From NCBI RefSeq assembly GCF_016900095.1, contig NZ_JACJJP010000002.1, positions 1 through 64,000 on the forward strand: DNA of 64,000 bases, in the 5' to 3' direction. A program made the translations under genes and the position numbers. Shown here piece by piece: positions 4,243 to 12,780 of the stretch. The notes below the pieces were generated by a model that saw only the letters and a list, made by a program, of their open reading frames with translations, had not been told where the DNA came from and did not search any database. Position 1 is the stretch's first letter. The number at the start of each line of letters is the position of its first letter. The stretch comes from Gemmiger formicilis (GTDB lineage: Bacteria > Bacillota > Clostridia > Oscillospirales > Ruminococcaceae).

Positions 4243-4312
4243 AAAGCTCGGGTCCGCCGTTTGCTCCGGCGGACAAAAACGTTCCTGCGGAACGTTTTTA
4301 GAGCGCGGGGGT

Positions 4313-4331
4313 TTTATTTTTTGCGCACCAC
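4313..4331. repeat. 19-bp inverted repeat, left arm
   Basis: TTTATTTTTTGCGCACCAC is the exact reverse complement of 22437-22455. It lies 14 bases from the recombinase stop codon. It could be an end sequence of a mobile segment or a substrate of a past inversion. Confidence 0.6.
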
Positions 4332-4344
4332 TCGTTAAATACCT

Positions 4345-6048
<1,704 letters not shown>

Positions 6049-6164
6049 TCAGGATGTTTGCCTGTTCACAGTATACATCTTTTCAGCGGTATTGTGTAGT
6101 TCTTTTTTACAGTTCCTTCCGTGACGCTGTCCTGTTTATGGTATTTCTTTTTGCTTGTTTCCGG

Positions 6165-6203
6165 TGTATAATGAAAAATCATCCATACCGGAACGGTATA
6201 ATG
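6165..6203 (+). promoter_or_regulatory. Candidate promoter region of the STAND ATPase gene
   Basis: The AT-rich divergent gap 6025-6276 holds two perfect TATAAT hexamers (6167-6172 and 6197-6202), each inside a similar CCGG...GTATAATG context, and several GTATAC half-palindromes. No good -35 lies at 17 bases from either, so the assignment is tentative. Confidence 0.35.
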
Positions 6204-6276
6204 TCAGTATACGGAAGGACTGCGCAAAACACATTGCGCGTAAATTGCAGGAATTTTGAGCACCGGAGGTGAGAGT

Positions 6277-8604
6277 ATGGAACGCGTGGACTTTTGCTCC
6301 TGTATGACGGTTCTGCGCAGATATCTGCAGGAAGATCAGATGGGAAATCAGCTGGATCTGATGTATGCCCTGTTCCGCAGCTTTTTGCAGAGTGAGGAAG
6401 CTGCCAGTTTCGATCTGGATAATGGACAGGTCTGCCGGTGGCTCAATGGCATGGCAAAAGTCAGCCCCAAAATTACAGGGTTTTACCTGACAGGTAAAGA
6501 ATATCTGCTCGCTGCGGACATCCGGGAAGAGATCTTCCCGTATCTTTCCGACCCAGATATGGCGATACAGGAATTTTGTCGCTTGATTCTTCAGGACCCT
6601 TCTGTGTCGGAAAGAAAAAAGCGGGCCCTGCTCGAAGAAAACGGCACCGATCCGGTGCAGCAGGCAAACTTTCTGGCAGATGTTCTCTGCTTTGCCCTAG
6701 GACGTGAGTTTCTCAAACGCGATGCGCGCACCAAGACTTTGCGGGCAGCAGGAAATCTCTCCCCCAGTATTCTGGATTTTATTTTCAGCGCAGACCCGCC
6801 ACGCCCCTGCAGCTATTTTTGTGGGCGAGATGTAGAGATGGAACAGCTCCATGATCTGCTCTCAGAAAACGGAAAGGTGTTTGTGCATGGGATTCCCGGC
6901 ATCGGAAAGAGCGAACTTGCCAAGGCCTACGCCAGCAGGTATCAAAAGGAATACACCAACCTTTTATATATAGCGTACTCGGGAAACCTGGTGCGGGATA
7001 TTTCCGAGATGGATTTTGCCGAGGACCAGCCGGAAGAAAACGAACAGGATCGCTTTCGGCGGCACAACCGCTTCCTGCGAAGCCTGCAAACCGATACGCT
7101 GCTGATCGTGGACAACTTTGATACAGCGCCCGAGGAGGAAGCCTTTTTACCGGTCTTGCTGAAATACCGTTGCCAGATCCTCTTCACAACCCGCTATCGT
7201 CCGCGACATTACACGGCATTGGAGATTACGGAAATTCAGGATGCTGCCATGCTGTTTCAGCTGGCAGAACGTTTCTATCCGGAAGCGGCAGATCATACGG
7301 AAGTCCTGGAACAGATCTTCCGTACGGTGCACGCCCATACTTTGGCCGTGGAACTGGCGGCACGCCTGCTGGGCAAGGGTGTTCTGACGCCGGAAGAGTT
7401 GCTGGAAAAACTGAAAGCCGAAAATGTGGCACTGCAATCTCAGGAAACCATTCACACGAACAAAGACAACCGCCCACAAAAGGCCACCTATTACCAGCAC
7501 ATTCATCTGCTTTTTTCGCTGTACAAATTGAGCGCCCCACAGCAAGCTGTACTGCGCTGCATGGCGCTGGTTCCGCCTCAGGGAATCTCTGTCCGCCGTC
7601 TGGTACAGTGGATGCAACTTTCCAGCAGCAACACCCCGGAAGAACTGGTGGACGCTGGATTTTTGCATCCCCAGCCAGGGTATTGTCTTGTGATGCATCC
7701 TCTGATCCGGGAAATCACTCTGGCCGACGAAAAGCCTTCCGTTACCAACTGCCGTTGCCTTTTGCAGGAAATCCAGAAGCAATGTCTGCTGTTGGGGGTT
7801 TCCATTGACTTCGCGCCGCTTCTGTTCCAGACGGTAGACGGTATCCTGGACCATTGCATCCGGGATGATCCCGAATATTTCCTGCTATGGCTGGAAGATG
7901 TCTTCGGTTATGCGGACAACTACTCCGATGAACCCCGACTTCGCAGAATACTGGAGGAAATCCAAGACATTCTGGAGCGAGGCAAAGTCGGAAAAGCCAA
8001 GGACCATGCCATCCTGTTGGATTATACGGCGGCATTGACCGGCAATTACGACCACCGCTATAGAGAAGCCGCCGAGTTGGATCGGAAAGCACTGGATATT
8101 CTCAACCAGCAGGATTCGCTGAACTCTACAGAACGGCAGCTTTTCTGCAATATTTCCTCCAATCTTTCCCTTTGGTACACCCGCTTGCAGCAGCCACAAC
8201 GAGCCTATGAGCAGATGAAGTTGGGTCTGCAGCTTCTTTCCGAGGGGCAGGTGGAGGTGAGCCGAAACACCATCCCACAGATCCTGAACTTTTCCATCAT
8301 TGCCGCAAATCTGGGACGACCCGAAGAAGGCATTCCGTATTTGCAGATGCTGCGGAAGTTGTATCAGCAACAACAGATGACCGAAGGAAGCGACTATGCG
8401 GAAGTGACCTATCGGCTGGGAACGCTGTATCTGGCCGCTGGTCAGCCGAAGGCAGCCAAAGATTTTTTGGAAGAAGCCTGGCAGATTTTCAAGACCGTAT
8501 ATGCCGACCAACCCAAACTTCTGGAAGAAAAGAAAGCCTTCTACCGCACCTTGCTGCAGATGCTCGGTGCGCAGTTTCTTCCCGATCCACAATCACTCAC
8601 CTGA
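6277..8604 (+). CDS. NB-ARC-type STAND ATPase with C-terminal TPR-like repeats
   Basis: This 775-aa protein has three parts. Residues 1-150 form an N-terminal domain I do not recognise, all-helical in appearance. The NTPase core has Walker A GIPGIGKS (205-212), Walker B LLIVDN (around 275-280) and an ARC-like ILFTTRYR near 305, then a winged-helix-like region to about 480. From about 590 to 770 there are TPR-like helical repeats (YREAAELDRKALDIL ... PEEGIPYLQMLRKLY ... YRLGTLYLAAGQPKAAKDFLEEAW). STAND proteins are signal-sensing switches used in regulation and in anti-phage defence (Avs-like). Here it is the only non-mobility gene between recombinase and mobilization genes. The start is ATG 6277 after GGAGGTGA. 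The function is inferred only: defence or element control. Confidence 0.8.
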   Translation: MERVDFCSCMTVLRRYLQEDQMGNQLDLMYALFRSFLQSEEAASFDLDNGQVCRWLNGMAKVSPKITGFYLTGKEYLLAADIREEIFPYLSDPDMAIQEFCRLILQDPSVSERKKRALLEENGTDPVQQANFLADVLCFALGREFLKRDARTKTLRAAGNLSPSILDFIFSADPPRPCSYFCGRDVEMEQLHDLLSENGKVFVHGIPGIGKSELAKAYASRYQKEYTNLLYIAYSGNLVRDISEMDFAEDQPEENEQDRFRRHNRFLRSLQTDTLLIVDNFDTAPEEEAFLPVLLKYRCQILFTTRYRPRHYTALEITEIQDAAMLFQLAERFYPEAADHTEVLEQIFRTVHAHTLAVELAARLLGKGVLTPEELLEKLKAENVALQSQETIHTNKDNRPQKATYYQHIHLLFSLYKLSAPQQAVLRCMALVPPQGISVRRLVQWMQLSSSNTPEELVDAGFLHPQPGYCLVMHPLIREITLADEKPSVTNCRCLLQEIQKQCLLLGVSIDFAPLLFQTVDGILDHCIRDDPEYFLLWLEDVFGYADNYSDEPRLRRILEEIQDILERGKVGKAKDHAILLDYTAALTGNYDHRYREAAELDRKALDILNQQDSLNSTERQLFCNISSNLSLWYTRLQQPQRAYEQMKLGLQLLSEGQVEVSRNTIPQILNFSIIAANLGRPEEGIPYLQMLRKLYQQQQMTEGSDYAEVTYRLGTLYLAAGQPKAAKDFLEEAWQIFKTVYADQPKLLEEKKAFYRTLLQMLGAQFLPDPQSLT

Positions 8605-8787
8605 AAATTCCAACCGGCCCCTGCGCAGATGCGCGGGGGCCGGTTTTGTTGTATCCTCAATTTGCGCTCAAATTCCGCACAATGAGAAAACACCCCTCTT
8701 TCGTTAGAATGAACCTGTAAACAAAACAGCACCAACGAGTTCGAAATTGGTGCCTGGTTCCAGGGAAAACGAAAGGGGGCTTTTTCT

Positions 8788-9000
8788 ATGGATATCGAAG
8801 CACAGAATCCGGTTCTGAGAAAACCGTACCGCCATACCGTGGGCCGCGCTGTTTTTGAGGTTACGGCCTACGGAAACCCGGCAGGTACGCGAACCGCCCA
8901 CCAGCTGCTGCTTCAAAGGATGGAGCGGCAGTTGGCGAAAAAAGCAAAGGAGGAACAAGCAGATGAAGCAACTGAATCAACTGACTATTGTGGGGATTGA
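8788..9000 (+). CDS. TnpW-like small transposon protein
   Basis: This 70-aa protein reads MDIEAQNPVLRKPYRHTVGR then a beta-rich VGRAVFEVTAYGNP segment and a charged helix ending in lysines. The pattern (a short IGKTTFEV-like strand and a basic helix) resembles TnpW of Tn4451-type elements, whose role is poorly known. AAAGGGGG precedes the ATG. It overlaps the next gene by 38 bases, which suggests translational coupling. The family call rests on visual similarity only. Confidence 0.55.
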   Translation: MDIEAQNPVLRKPYRHTVGRAVFEVTAYGNPAGTRTAHQLLLQRMERQLAKKAKEEQADEATESTDYCGD

Positions 9001-9880
9001 CCAGGGATACGGCAACATGAAAACAGCAAACACCCTTTTTCCCACCGCCATCACCGCTTTTGATACCGCTCCGGTGTTTCAAGGAGATGTACTGGAATAT
9101 GACGGACGTTTTTACCGCGTGGGCGAAGGGCATAAGGGATTTGTGGCAGATAAGTCTTCCGATGAAGATTTTTATCTCCTGACGCTGGCCGCTGTGGCCA
9201 AAGAGTTGGAACTGTATCGACTTTTCACTGCCAACCTTTGTCTGGCCGTGGGATTGCCGCTCAGCTGGGTGGGCAGCCAGCGGGAGAGTTTCCGCCAATA
9301 TCTGTTGCAAAAGCAAGCGGTCACTTTCCGATTGAACGGGCATTTGTTTCAGCTGCGGATCACAGGATGTAAGGTTTATCCCCAAGGGTATGCAGCCGTA
9401 GTTCAGCAGTTGGGTACCTTTGAGGGAGAACACCTGCTTGCGGACATTGGCAATGGAACCATGAATCTTCTGTATTTGCAGGATTCCCAGCCACAGGAAA
9501 GCCGTTGCTGGACTGAAAAAATCGGTGTCAATCAGTGTATGATTCGCGCCAAGGAAACCGTCCTGCGTAAGTTCGGCACCAAAGTCAGTGACCATACCGT
9601 GGAACAGATTTTTCGTACCGGCACCGCCAAGATCGACGCAGCTTACCTTGCCTGTATTCGTGATGTTGCTTCTGCTTATGTGGAGGAACTCTTTGCCGTA
9701 CTGCGCAGCTATGAATATGATCCGGCAACCGTACAGTTGATCGTTGCCGGTGGCGGCGGACAGCTCATCAAGCATTTTTACTCCTATGACCCGGCGCAGA
9801 TTACTATTTTGGATGACCTTTGCGCCGCCGCCAAGGGCTACGAATATCTGGCATACCGACAGCTTATGCGGGAGGCCTGA
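8963..9880 (+). CDS. ParM/StbA-like actin-type segregation ATPase
   Basis: This 305-aa protein carries actin-fold nucleotide motifs: IDQGYGNMK at the N-terminus (phosphate 1), LLADIGNGTMNL in the middle (phosphate 2) and LIVAGGGGQLI near the C-terminus (adenosine). ParM-type filaments push plasmid copies apart. The ATG at 8963 is led by AAAGGAGG, ruling out an upstream start that would add residues overlapping the previous gene. It is followed after one base by a ParR-like gene. On an integrative element it suggests that the excised circle is segregated or copied. Confidence 0.82.
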   Translation: MKQLNQLTIVGIDQGYGNMKTANTLFPTAITAFDTAPVFQGDVLEYDGRFYRVGEGHKGFVADKSSDEDFYLLTLAAVAKELELYRLFTANLCLAVGLPLSWVGSQRESFRQYLLQKQAVTFRLNGHLFQLRITGCKVYPQGYAAVVQQLGTFEGEHLLADIGNGTMNLLYLQDSQPQESRCWTEKIGVNQCMIRAKETVLRKFGTKVSDHTVEQIFRTGTAKIDAAYLACIRDVASAYVEELFAVLRSYEYDPATVQLIVAGGGGQLIKHFYSYDPAQITILDDLCAAAKGYEYLAYRQLMREA

Positions 9881-9881
9881 G

Positions 9882-10253
9882 ATGGGAGAAATTCGCACAA
9901 CCAATCTCCGCCTCAATCTGGAAAAGCCAATACAGCGGCAGGCATGGGAATATCTGCAAACTATGGATAAAGCGGTATTCAAGTCCTATAGTCAGGCAAT
10001 AGCCACTGCACTGGTGGATTATTTCGACCGGTATTACAAAAAGCAGGAGGACCCCTATCTGGAAACCCGTGCCCGGGAAGAACGGTTTGTCCAGCAGATC
10101 GTAACCGCTGTGGAGCAAGCCATGCGGGACGTACTGCCGCTTTTTCTGGCAGGTTGTCTGGCAGGTATGGGGCAAAGCGCCGGGTCGATTCAGCCGGAAG
10201 CCCCAGATTCAAAAGAGTCGGATTGCGTAAACTGGGATTTTGCGGGAGGTTGA
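9882..10253 (+). CDS. ParR-like partner of the ParM-type ATPase
   Basis: This 123-aa protein begins GEIRTTNLRLNLEKPIQRQAWEYL, a beta strand then helix typical of ribbon-helix-helix DNA binders, followed by KSYSQAIATALVDYFDRYY. It has an acidic, less structured tail. It sits one base after the actin-like gene, the normal parM-parR order, so it is the probable centromere-binding adaptor. GGAGG overlaps the end of the upstream gene. Confidence 0.65.
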   Translation: MGEIRTTNLRLNLEKPIQRQAWEYLQTMDKAVFKSYSQAIATALVDYFDRYYKKQEDPYLETRAREERFVQQIVTAVEQAMRDVLPLFLAGCLAGMGQSAGSIQPEAPDSKESDCVNWDFAGG

Positions 10254-10260
10254 TGGGAAT

Positions 10261-10488
10261 ATGAAAACCTTACAGCAATGCCTGGAGGAGTTGGCAACCG
10301 AACGGCCGTTGCAGCCGGATGAATATCTGGACCCCAAAACCGGGCTGCCCCGCTGCAAACGCTGTCACAGCCCCCGCCGCATCCGGAAATCGCTTTTCGG
10401 CAGGGAACGGCTGCTTCCCATAGCTTGCAAATGTCAGCAAAATGGTGACAGTTCCGGGAAGAAAAACACCAAAAAGCAGGAAAAATGA
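10261..10488 (+). CDS. Zinc-ribbon fragment resembling the N-terminus of a DnaC-type helicase loader
   Basis: This 75-aa protein has a CKRCHSPRRIR ... ACKCQ four-cysteine cluster preceded by DEYLDPKTGLPRC. The pattern resembles the N-terminal zinc ribbon of DnaC/IstB-like ATPases carried by related elements, but no AAA+ domain follows: it stops in a lysine-rich tail. It may be a truncated replication gene or a stand-alone zinc protein. The ATG at 10261 is led by GGGAGG within the ParR-like gene. Confidence 0.5.
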   Translation: MKTLQQCLEELATERPLQPDEYLDPKTGLPRCKRCHSPRRIRKSLFGRERLLPIACKCQQNGDSSGKKNTKKQEK

Positions 10489-10557
10489 TGCTGCATTTTG
10501 CCCTCAAAAAGTCCGTCGACCAATGGGATCAATCTTTGATACCGGAAAGGAGTTTCT

Positions 10558-10764
10558 ATGACTGAAAATGAGAAAAAAGTGGTACAGGCCAGGCATCGTT
10601 TGGAGGCTGCACAAGCCAGGAACCGCCAGAGAGAACGAAAGGAGCGAACACGACGATTGATCCAGGAAGGAGCCATTCTGGAAAGTTTACTGCCGGAAAT
10701 CCGCGACGTGCCTCTGTGTGATCTGCCCGCAAGATTGCAGGTTGGATTGCGCAACGATCCGTAA
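10558..10764 (+). CDS. DUF3847-like mobilization accessory protein
   Basis: This 68-aa, highly basic protein is a single helical coiled coil (MTENEKKVVQARHRLEAAQARNRQ ...) followed by RTRRLIQEGAILESLLPE, a signature seen in the small DUF3847 proteins encoded just before MobA/MobL relaxases. A role as a MobC-like accessory at oriT is inferred from its position directly before oriT and the relaxase. GAAAGGAG precedes the ATG. Confidence 0.6.
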   Translation: MTENEKKVVQARHRLEAAQARNRQRERKERTRRLIQEGAILESLLPEIRDVPLCDLPARLQVGLRNDP

Positions 10765-10782
10765 GGGGAAAACTGTCCCGGA

Positions 10783-10825
10783 AGGGCGCACTTACTCACC
10801 ACCGGCAAAGCCGGCGGTGGTAAGC
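10783..10825 (-). other. oriT: MobQ-type origin of transfer (oriT)
   Basis: The reverse complement of 10783-10794 is TAAGTGCGCCCT, identical to the nic-region core of RSF1010/R1162-type MobQ origins. It is preceded on that strand, as in those origins, by an imperfect inverted repeat (CACCACCGGC / GCCGGCGGTG, 10797-10821). It lies 45 bases before a MobA/MobL relaxase, the enzyme class that cuts such sites. Confidence 0.85.
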
Positions 10826-10869
10826 GCGCCCGCTGCGGCGGGAGGGAAAAACGAAGGAGGTGACACGCC

Positions 10870-12555
10870 GTGGCGATTTACCACCTGGAAGCAAAAATCA
10901 TCAGCCGCGGAGCAGGACGTTCGGCCATTGCCGCTGCGGCTTATCAGAGCGGCGAAAAGCTGTACAATGCATACGACGGCCTGACCCATGACTACCGGAA
11001 AAAAGGAGGTATCCTGCACACCGAGATTTTACTGCCGCCCCAGGCACCCGCTGCCTGGAAGGAACGTCAAATCTTATGGGAAGCAGTAGAGACCGCCGAG
11101 AAAACCCGGGACAGCCGCCTGGCGCGTCAGCTCATCGTTGCCCTGCCGGTGGAACTTGCCCAGGAGGATTGGCTGCGGCTTCTGCGATCCTTTTTGCAAA
11201 AGGAATGTGTCGACCAGGGGATGTGCGCCGATCTGGCGATCCATGATCCGGATGGCCACAACCCTCATGCGCACATCCTGCTCACCATGCGTCCCCTGAA
11301 TACACAAGGGCAATGGCAGGCAAAAACACAAAAAGAATACCTGTGCAGCAAAGCGGGACAGGAACAAGGCTTTACCGCACAGGAATTTCTGCAAGCCAAA
11401 ACGGAAGGCTGGGAAAAACAGTATAAATACAAGAACCCGCAGGGCCGGACAGCGTGGCTGACACCCTCACAGGCCGTCCAAAACCCCGAGTGGGTACGCT
11501 GCTCGAAGCAGCCGAAAGCGGCAAAATTTGGGCGACAAAATCCGCTGTGTGCCCGGTGGAACAGCCAGGAGCAGCTGCTCCAATGGCGATGCGCCTGGGC
11601 AGAGGCCGTCAATCACGCGTTGGAAGAAAAGCAGCAGACAGCCCGTGTTACCCATCTGAGCCATGCGGCACAAGGCATAGCGGAGCAGCCAACCGTTCAT
11701 GAAGGATACCACGCCCGCAAGTTGGAAAAGCAGGGAATCTCTGCGGACCGCTGCGAACTCAATCGGCAGATTCGGGCCGACAATGCGTTGCTGCACACGC
11801 TGAAAGAGCAGTTGGAAAAATGGACGGAATGGGTCGGCCAAGGGGTGGAGAAGATGGCTGCTCTGCTGGAACAGCTGCGCAGCAATCTGATCCTGCTACA
11901 ATACCGGGTCCTTTCCAATGAAGCGCGGACAGATATTTACAAACGGGAGGCGGCCTATATGCGTCCACTCTTGAAAGATGTGGACGATACAAACCGACAG
12001 TTGACGGAGATCCAATTGCAACGCCAAAAGGCACAGGCGGACAAAAAGAGCCTTTCCCCGCTGCAGCTCCGAAAGTACCGCCATTTGTCTGAGCAAATCG
12101 CCGCCCTGACCGAAGAACTGGAAGAACTGCAAAGCCGCCGCCATATGTTGATGGAAAAGCTCTATTGCAAAAAGGATAGCGATGTTACCCGAAGGGAAAA
12201 AGAGCTGGTGCAGCTTACCCTGATGATTGAGCAGTTGGATACGCAACGGAACAGTCTTCAGGAGCAGCTGAAAAAAGATCTGCAACATTTTACAGGTCTT
12301 ATAAATTCCATTCCCGAACCGGACCGGGAAGCCGTTATGGACGAGCGGGTAAGACTTCGCAAACAGATTACGCGGGAACTCTATCATTCTTTGCAAGCAA
12401 AGGAGCTGGAATTCAATTTTTCCCGGGCTGCCAATGCCGAAAGAAAAATCGATGATTTCACGGGAGAAACCGGTCAGATGCAAAAGATATTGCTTCGGAA
12501 GCGCAAAAAGCAAACTTCAAGGCAAGGCAGAAATTCGGAAGAGCGAGCCCTTTGA
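10870..12555 (+). CDS. MobA/MobL family relaxase (MobQ)
   Basis: This 561-aa protein nicks oriT and pilots the strand during conjugative mobilization. The N-terminal domain shows MAIYHLEAKIISRGAGRSAIAAAAYQSGEKL with the catalytic Tyr in AAYQSG, then the metal-binding HNPHAHILLTMR motif (about 135-145). Residues from about 270 to the end are a long coiled coil. It is shorter than relaxase-primase fusions and has no helicase domain. The start is GTG 10870 after GAAGGAGGTGA. No conjugation machinery is in the window, so the element must use a helper. Confidence 0.92.
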   Translation: MAIYHLEAKIISRGAGRSAIAAAAYQSGEKLYNAYDGLTHDYRKKGGILHTEILLPPQAPAAWKERQILWEAVETAEKTRDSRLARQLIVALPVELAQEDWLRLLRSFLQKECVDQGMCADLAIHDPDGHNPHAHILLTMRPLNTQGQWQAKTQKEYLCSKAGQEQGFTAQEFLQAKTEGWEKQYKYKNPQGRTAWLTPSQAVQNPEWVRCSKQPKAAKFGRQNPLCARWNSQEQLLQWRCAWAEAVNHALEEKQQTARVTHLSHAAQGIAEQPTVHEGYHARKLEKQGISADRCELNRQIRADNALLHTLKEQLEKWTEWVGQGVEKMAALLEQLRSNLILLQYRVLSNEARTDIYKREAAYMRPLLKDVDDTNRQLTEIQLQRQKAQADKKSLSPLQLRKYRHLSEQIAALTEELEELQSRRHMLMEKLYCKKDSDVTRREKELVQLTLMIEQLDTQRNSLQEQLKKDLQHFTGLINSIPEPDREAVMDERVRLRKQITRELYHSLQAKELEFNFSRAANAERKIDDFTGETGQMQKILLRKRKKQTSRQGRNSEERAL

Positions 12556-12780
12556 ACAGAGTTTACTTTATCTGAAGCAATTCTCGATTCCGCAATTGTT
12601 TTAAACTCAGCCGGAAAACGCAAAAGTCGAAGCAAACCCAACACATTAGCCGCACCGGAAGATCCCATCCCGGCTACCCTGCCGCAGGGAATCTTAACGA
12701 CGGCGCCGGAGCCGCCCGCAGCGGATTTTTCCGGCATCGGGAGGAACCGGTCTTACCGCCTGGTTTGCCGGATCACGGTA
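12556..12780. other. Gap after the relaxase, no gene seen
   Basis: These 225 bases hold no supported ORF, RNA or repeat. GC rises across it from element-like to chromosome-like, so the right limit of the mobilizable module probably lies here or nearby. Confidence 0.5.

Follow-up and report, generated by a model that had tools for sequence, protein, structure and literature searches.

A mobile element of Gemmiger formicilis encodes a STAND ATPase that is probably the master switch for its own excision and mobilization. We predict that this protein, found in the 64,000-nucleotide stretch of contig NZ_JACJJP010000002.1 that we analysed (the window), is an AfsR/MalT-like activator that acts at two arrays of direct repeats, one directed at the recombinase gene and the other at the mobilization genes.

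The element and its STAND protein

A 98.6% identical copy of the element sits at a different chromosomal site in a second genome (G034, locus L041), and comparison of the two sets the ends at 4306 and 12589. With its own recombinase and relaxase and its different chromosomal sites, the element is, judged from sequence, integrative and mobilizable. Its features in the window are as follows.

4306-12589, no strand: whole element, about 8.28 kb, present as the 98.6% identical block in G034 (L041)
4345-6024, minus strand: large serine recombinase (Pfam Resolvase, Recombinase, Zn_ribbon_recom and DUF4368)
6277-8604, plus strand: STAND ATPase, with an N-terminal domain (about residues 1-150), an NB-ARC-type NOD from about residue 179 and a TPR-like C-terminus
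8612-8645, plus strand: terminator-like hairpin of 15 pairs after the STAND gene
8788-9000, plus strand: TnpW-like small protein of 70 aa, the peptide matching that of L226
8963-9880, plus strand: ParM/actin-like protein (ALP_N)
9891-10253, plus strand: small protein after parM in the ParR position, named by position only and with an uncertain start
10240-10488, plus strand: remnant, N-terminus of a DnaC-like helicase loader, matching L033, L037 and L038
10558-10764, plus strand: DUF3847-like small protein (38.9 bits, cut-off 40)
10870-12555, plus strand: MobQ/MobA_MobL relaxase (Pfam and NCBIfam)

The TnpW-like peptide of the window itself gave no TnpW match; for its L079 counterpart the TnpW score was 18.9 bits, where the cut-off is 25. 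The product of 9891-10253 has matches after parM in L034, L039, L273-L276, L278 and L279, and after the STAND gene in L033. The RepA_N gene of related elements was not noticed in the window beside the truncated DnaC-like N-terminus (10240-10488).

The element also occurs in a further genome, G004 (L040), where its right-hand flank is that of the window. This copy has an insertion between the recombinase and STAND genes with a 15-bp junction overlap (window 6162-6176) and is without the segment corresponding to window 9010-9676, inside parM. It also has about 409 bp extra between the element end and the right flank (window 12589 versus L040:7013-7422), so the right flank of the window may carry a small deletion. 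The 3.26-Mb genome of the window holds a single STAND match, and near-identical copies occur in two of the same-genus genomes searched.

The STAND open reading frame (6277-8601 plus stop) translates into 775 aa with zero internal stops and, since homologues exist, is not a chance reading frame. An earlier note, made from the sequence alone, had described such a protein with an NTPase core and TPR-like repeats lying between the recombinase and the mobilization genes, and all of this was borne out. The core motifs GIPGIGKS (Walker A), LLIVDN (Walker B) and ILFTTR are present; G205, G208, I209, G210, K211, S212, E213, T304 and R306 are invariant in a 13-row alignment, and D279/N280 reach at least 90% conservation. 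Over residues 179-308, Pfam AAA_16 scored above its cut-off, with NB-ARC (22.3 bits versus 23.5) and nSTAND1 below theirs. The repeats were recovered as TPR_12 at residues 670-739, and the gene does lie between the minus-strand serine recombinase gene and the parM/MobQ genes.

AlphaFold modelled the full-length protein with a mean pLDDT of 83.8. The best PDB match of this model was PH0952 (6mfv), a STAND-TPR protein (E 7.7e-11); its helical C-terminus matches TPR structures, and the MalT structure 8bob was a weaker match. Thus, with a P-loop NOD, NB-ARC-type architecture and C-terminal sensor repeats, the window protein is a STAND NTPase. Comparison with NCBIfam gave 90.3 bits for the FxSxx-COOH system TPR protein (FxsT, NF040586), which needs at least 300, and 20.3 bits for DS8_antiphage, against a cut-off of 790.

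Homologues sharing the N-terminal domain are uncommon. At E 0.001, N-terminal profile A2 matched in 8 of 391 class genomes (own genome and weak matches included) and in one of 398 phylum genomes, the window's own; profile A4 matched in 12 of 282 family genomes, again with the own genome and weak matches included. We compared 23 other loci that share this domain. L009, L040 and L041 carry copies of one and the same element and were left out of the count, and two more were dropped: L081, where the match (E 7e-4) lies in what by eye is an apparent host gene, and L280, where tblastn gave no STAND match. Queries were the recombinase, integrase, ParM, the ParR-position protein, relaxase, MobC, RepA, DnaC, TnpW and DUF3847. 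At least one of these mobile-element proteins was matched in 22 of the 23 loci, L036 being the exception with none.

In L076, L078 and L079 the recombinase and STAND genes diverge, and small ORFs and then MobQ follow STAND; L077 has this order with additional genes. In L080 the partners of STAND are a Tn916-type Xis and Int. A distant version is present on plasmid pRUMAL02, together with recombinases, MobC, relaxase and ParM, and stops interrupt the STAND gene in L037. The earlier note had called the protein the sole cargo of its element, a wording left unsupported because homologues recur with mobile-element genes; STAND looks like part of the element backbone instead.

In L077 (4047-8779), extra genes lie at the 3′ end of the STAND gene with a duplicated STAND C-terminal tail beyond them, and the same tail copy is found at the contig start in L226 (181-369). 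Cargo genes may insert at the 3′ end of STAND and restore that end in doing so.

Repeat arrays and their spacing to promoters

Common to the STAND upstream regions are three direct ATTGA repeats with an 11-bp period. Read towards the genes that they would control, both arrays of an element have the form TCAAT-N6-TCAAT-N6-TCAAT. In the window these are:

6206-6211, minus strand: −10-like box TATACT, 21 nt from array 1, towards the recombinase
6233-6259, minus strand: array 1 (TCAAA/GCAAT/GCAAT, three mismatches to three TCAAT), between STAND and the recombinase
8657-8683, plus strand: array 2 (TCAAT/TCAAA/ACAAT), upstream of the tnpW-like, parM and mob genes
8705-8710, plus strand: −10-like box TAGAAT, 21 nt from array 2

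Array 1 points away from STAND and array 2 into the tnpW-like/parM/mob genes; across loci, the second array lies upstream of rep/par/mob genes. The distance from array 1 to the recombinase is about 160-210 bp in the window and in L076-L079, and the array is directed at Xis/Int in L080 and at small ORFs in L035-L038. In the array 1 leader, near the recombinase start, there is an inverted repeat in L076 (9459-9540), L077 (11193-11296) and L078 (2655-2736), possibly a second, RNA-level control.

The spacing to the −10 box is nearly constant. Of 21 arrays (near-duplicates L037 array 1 and L064 array 1 omitted), 19 are followed by a TAnnnT hexamer whose start is exactly 21 nt beyond the last TCAAT, against 34 of 1197 background positions (2.8%); in the remaining two (L063 and L080) it stands at 22 by eye. 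The binomial probability is about 1e-27, which, as the loci are related, says only that the spacing is not accidental; distance figures in these calculations were entered by hand. The −10 boxes of the 19 arrays match TATAAT at 4.8 of 6 positions on average. Their best −35 candidates match at 2.7 of 6 versus 2.5 for random sequence, none above chance, and the array promoters therefore look weak without help. The same promoter scan found no promoter-like site aimed at STAND in the window.

We called an array at a score of at least 13 of 15 against the consensus. Consensus arrays were present in 17 of 24 STAND loci, a count that includes near-duplicate pairs and related, hence not independent, loci. 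None was found in 23 control loci, which are shorter (3-5 kb) and in which the protein match stops short of the N-terminal domain. A score of 13 also arises by chance, as seen from extra matches in L037 and L276 and from 2 matches in 9 reversed loci.

Searches with the exact composite pattern were more specific, giving 11 matches in 8 of 394 order genomes and none with a reversed-pattern control. Eight of these, in 6 genomes, belong to elements of this STAND family; two of them (G239 and G076) lie at contig ends, with the typical neighbours present and STAND not in view. The other three, in 2 genomes, are tandem repeats. With up to three mismatches, the window's own genome contains array 2 (two mismatches), array 1 (three) and one unrelated site (three).

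Viral contigs gave 18 stretches with the composite pattern. L131, L160, L205 and L206 share an L062-type upstream region, with STAND in view in two of them; L179 has a distant recombinase match only, and the other 13 match no query protein. L205 contains array 1 without STAND in the locus, and a STAND copy lies elsewhere on the same contig; by eye, its array 1 region (2754-2807) adjoins AbiE-like and McrBC-like genes. A motif-free array rule was discarded as stand-alone evidence: it was too unspecific, with 34 matches forward versus 18 reversed, the repeats themselves persisting in reversed sequence.

Once the arrays had been described, the family search supplied nine more loci, of which eight contain a STAND match. 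A consensus array with a −10 box at +21 is present in three of the eight (L272, L276 and, twice, L274). The L276 array lies upstream of parM only, with none adjoining STAND and a further weak match without a −10 box. The array pair of L277 is a variant with GCAA cores. Triple repeats of other sequence occur with an 11-bp period upstream of parM in L279 and L034, and between STAND and parM in L278 and L039, their register to the −10 box being partly chosen by eye. L275 has a degenerate array only, by eye, and no array was found in L273. Over the 24 STAND loci this makes 17 with consensus arrays, one with the GCAA variant, four with other sequences, one degenerate and one with none, the last six leaning on judgement by eye. 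In L273 (11643) and L275 (14096), the integrase gene is directly followed by triple 11-bp repeats (TTTACGACT-like), possibly arm-type sites to which the integrase binds.

The two arrays of one element are more alike than arrays of different elements (22.1 versus 19.3 of 27 positions; permutation P 0.0005 for 9 elements, 0.003 without L277). This comparison omits the L037 and L078 pairs and array 1 of L037 and L064, and array 2 of L277 was registered by eye. The most diverged N-terminal domains go with diverged arrays. Such joint divergence would fit a binder encoded by the element.

Candidate binder and proposed mode of action

The gene content of array-bearing loci, compared without determining element ends, varies widely. 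Int is the only query match in L080, where an array is present without a large serine recombinase, ParM, ParR, Mob, Rep, DnaC, TnpW or DUF3847. L037 and L038 have arrays with only RepA and DnaC among query matches, and L062-L064 and L272 have arrays with a serine recombinase as the only one. L076, L078 and L079 have both arrays with the recombinase, MobQ, TnpW and DUF3847, and no ParM, ParR, RepA or DnaC; L036 has both arrays and none of the element genes sought. STAND is the only tested gene product common to the array-bearing element types compared. Since the other genes differ among these loci, STAND is by elimination the candidate binder, and we infer from this distribution that it binds the arrays.

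The N-terminal domain would be expected to make the contact. Among 13 N-termini, including that of the window, we found no significant Pfam family, no Pfam HTH match, and no OmpR-type DNA-binding plus BTA domain of the kind that defines AfsR/SARP proteins. An AlphaFold model of residues 1-174 (pLDDT 85.6) gave no significant fold match in Foldseek pdb, VIA-align or viral searches, and a PDB profile search with the N-terminus gave nothing significant; clamp-loader matches of the model (Z about 4) were weak and were taken as helical look-alikes. Residues 50-58 read GQVCRWLNG, an HTH-like stretch in which RW-NG resembles the recognition helix of Cro/C1 regulators. HTH_3 aligned weakly with the N-terminal profile (hhalign, P 0.012 for one comparison); the score was 15.2, and the highest-scoring of 38 windows taken along the protein reached 14.2. 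This match lends weak support to an XRE-type HTH, which the GQVCRWLNG stretch had suggested. The evidence points to a predicted DNA-binding role, not that of a toxic effector.

The earlier note had proposed an undescribed effector at the N-terminus. That the domain matches no significant Pfam family agrees with "undescribed", but the effector itself was set aside: no known effector domain was found there, and the 1-174 model had no significant structural counterpart. The note had also held that a DNA-binding N-terminus in ordinary chromosomal regulators would count against its proposal. That objection applies in part: DNA binding is what the evidence favours, but the homologues look like regulators of mobile elements, not ordinary chromosomal ones.

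In the mechanism that we propose, the TPR sensor and the NOD would keep STAND inactive at rest. ATP binding and oligomerisation would follow a cue, which may be stress or a helper conjugative element. The N-terminal domains would then settle on the three successive 11-bp repeats of an array, with protomers lined up along the same DNA face, one for each turn of the helix. Bound just upstream of promoters with a −10 box and no evident −35, STAND would recruit RNA polymerase. Array 1 would turn on the recombinase and so excision, and array 2 the tnpW-like, parM, (rep) and mob genes for maintenance and mobilization. We infer accompanying properties to match, namely that STAND activates rather than represses the array promoters and that it oligomerises on DNA. 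As array 1 lies within the STAND upstream region, autoregulation is likely.

STAND could instead be a predicted repressor that silences the recombinase and mob genes until an inducer releases it, which we consider rather unlikely. A protein bound to the arrays, which adjoin the −35 region, could keep polymerase out, and in L035 and L272 array 1 has a promoter-like site on one side and the STAND start codon on the other. Against repression, the promoters have no −35 above chance and look weak unaided, and the fixed spacing recalls activator boxes such as those reported for AfsR in the parts of that study available (PMC10936776). A precedent for repression is IME8 of Lysinibacillus, whose self-encoded reg operon raises excision when deleted, according to the available portion of the paper (PMC13239906).

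It is quite unlikely that another factor (a ParR-like protein, TnpW, the recombinase or a host protein) binds the arrays and that STAND is merely nearby. ParM/ParR centromeres, too, typically contain repeats with an 11-bp period, and array 2 is often upstream of parM, yet both arrays occur in L076, L078 and L079 without a ParM or ParR match, and the L080 array occurs without a match to ParM, ParR, TnpW or a serine recombinase. With a host factor one would expect sites elsewhere in the genome, yet the own genome has three matches only, two of them in the element. As for the element carrying an Avs-like anti-phage sensor as defence cargo, STAND NTPases do include anti-phage sensors, and Avs3 and AVAST5 structures are among the matches of the full-length model. 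PADLOC matches of the STAND proteins, however, were weak: the window protein reached a best E of 4.7e-4, over its ATPase region only, and matches of the other members were weak too; no known effector domain was found at the N-terminus, and STAND recurs beside recombinase/par/rep/mob genes with operator-like arrays. We therefore dropped defence as the main reading and regard it as very unlikely. The earlier note had left open "a defence or an element-control switch"; operator-like arrays and linkage to recombinase, rep, par and mob genes speak for control, and the weak PADLOC result does not speak for defence.

Relation to known regulators and significance

The proposed activation by STAND has parallels in several systems. 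MalT, the STAND transcription activator whose structure was the weaker match above, binds DNA through a C-terminal LuxR-type HTH, and Pfam found no such domain in the full window protein. The DUF4368-bearing large serine recombinase and the TnpW-like small protein (TnpW match below cut-off) are features shared with the Tn4451/TnpX group of mobilizable elements; Tn4451 elements are not known to encode a STAND regulator.

The nearest mechanism, we propose from this comparison, is that of AfsR, a large SARP of Streptomyces. As described in the accessible parts of one study, AfsR has an N-terminal DNA-binding domain followed by NOD and TPR, which inhibit it until ATP binds, and its target promoters combine a poor −35 with 11-bp direct repeats set at constant spacing to the −10 box (PMC10936776). 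The window protein has only a candidate DNA-binding domain. AfsR uses two repeats 8 bp from the −10 box, whereas the arrays here have three at 21 nt, and it targets secondary metabolism, whereas the proposed targets of STAND are mobile-element genes. Because no SARP domain was found, STAND is AfsR-like in logic but not a member of that family. PH0952 of Pyrococcus horikoshii also combines a predicted N-terminal DNA-binding domain with a NOD and a TPR sensor; its N-terminal domain is described as ArsR-like, and the accessible part of its description mentions no targets or mobile-element linkage (PMC6468293).

Among mobilizable islands, SetCD and AcaCD are, in the portion of the source available, master activators of excision and transfer genes (PMC5704250). 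They come from a helper element, whereas the candidate STAND activator comes from the mobilizable element itself. IME8 of Lysinibacillus sphaericus is closer in that it is a mobilizable element with a self-encoded regulator, the HTH protein Reg16 of its integration/excision operon; the terms NB-ARC and tetratricopeptide are absent from the main text, and no STAND regulator or repeat array is described in the part available (PMC13239906). Among the paper listings searched, with most subscription journals outside coverage, no description of such a STAND-switched system appeared.

A bolder reading, which we put forward tentatively as doubtful, is that this NLR-like STAND/TPR family is a master switch of mobilizable elements, with a new type of N-terminal DNA-binding domain, three-repeat operators that differ between elements in step with it, and TPRs that would sense the arrival of a helper conjugative element or a phage, timing excision and mobilization to an available ride. 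The excision timing of Firmicutes integrative mobilizable elements is poorly known, and the best characterised mobilizable-island cases depend on helper-element activators, as far as the consulted portion of the source goes (PMC5704250). If our prediction is true, these elements encode a STAND switch of their own, and its operators can be predicted at the promoters for recombinase and mobilization genes. Such a switch would tie the architecture of innate-immune sensors to the control of DNA mobility.
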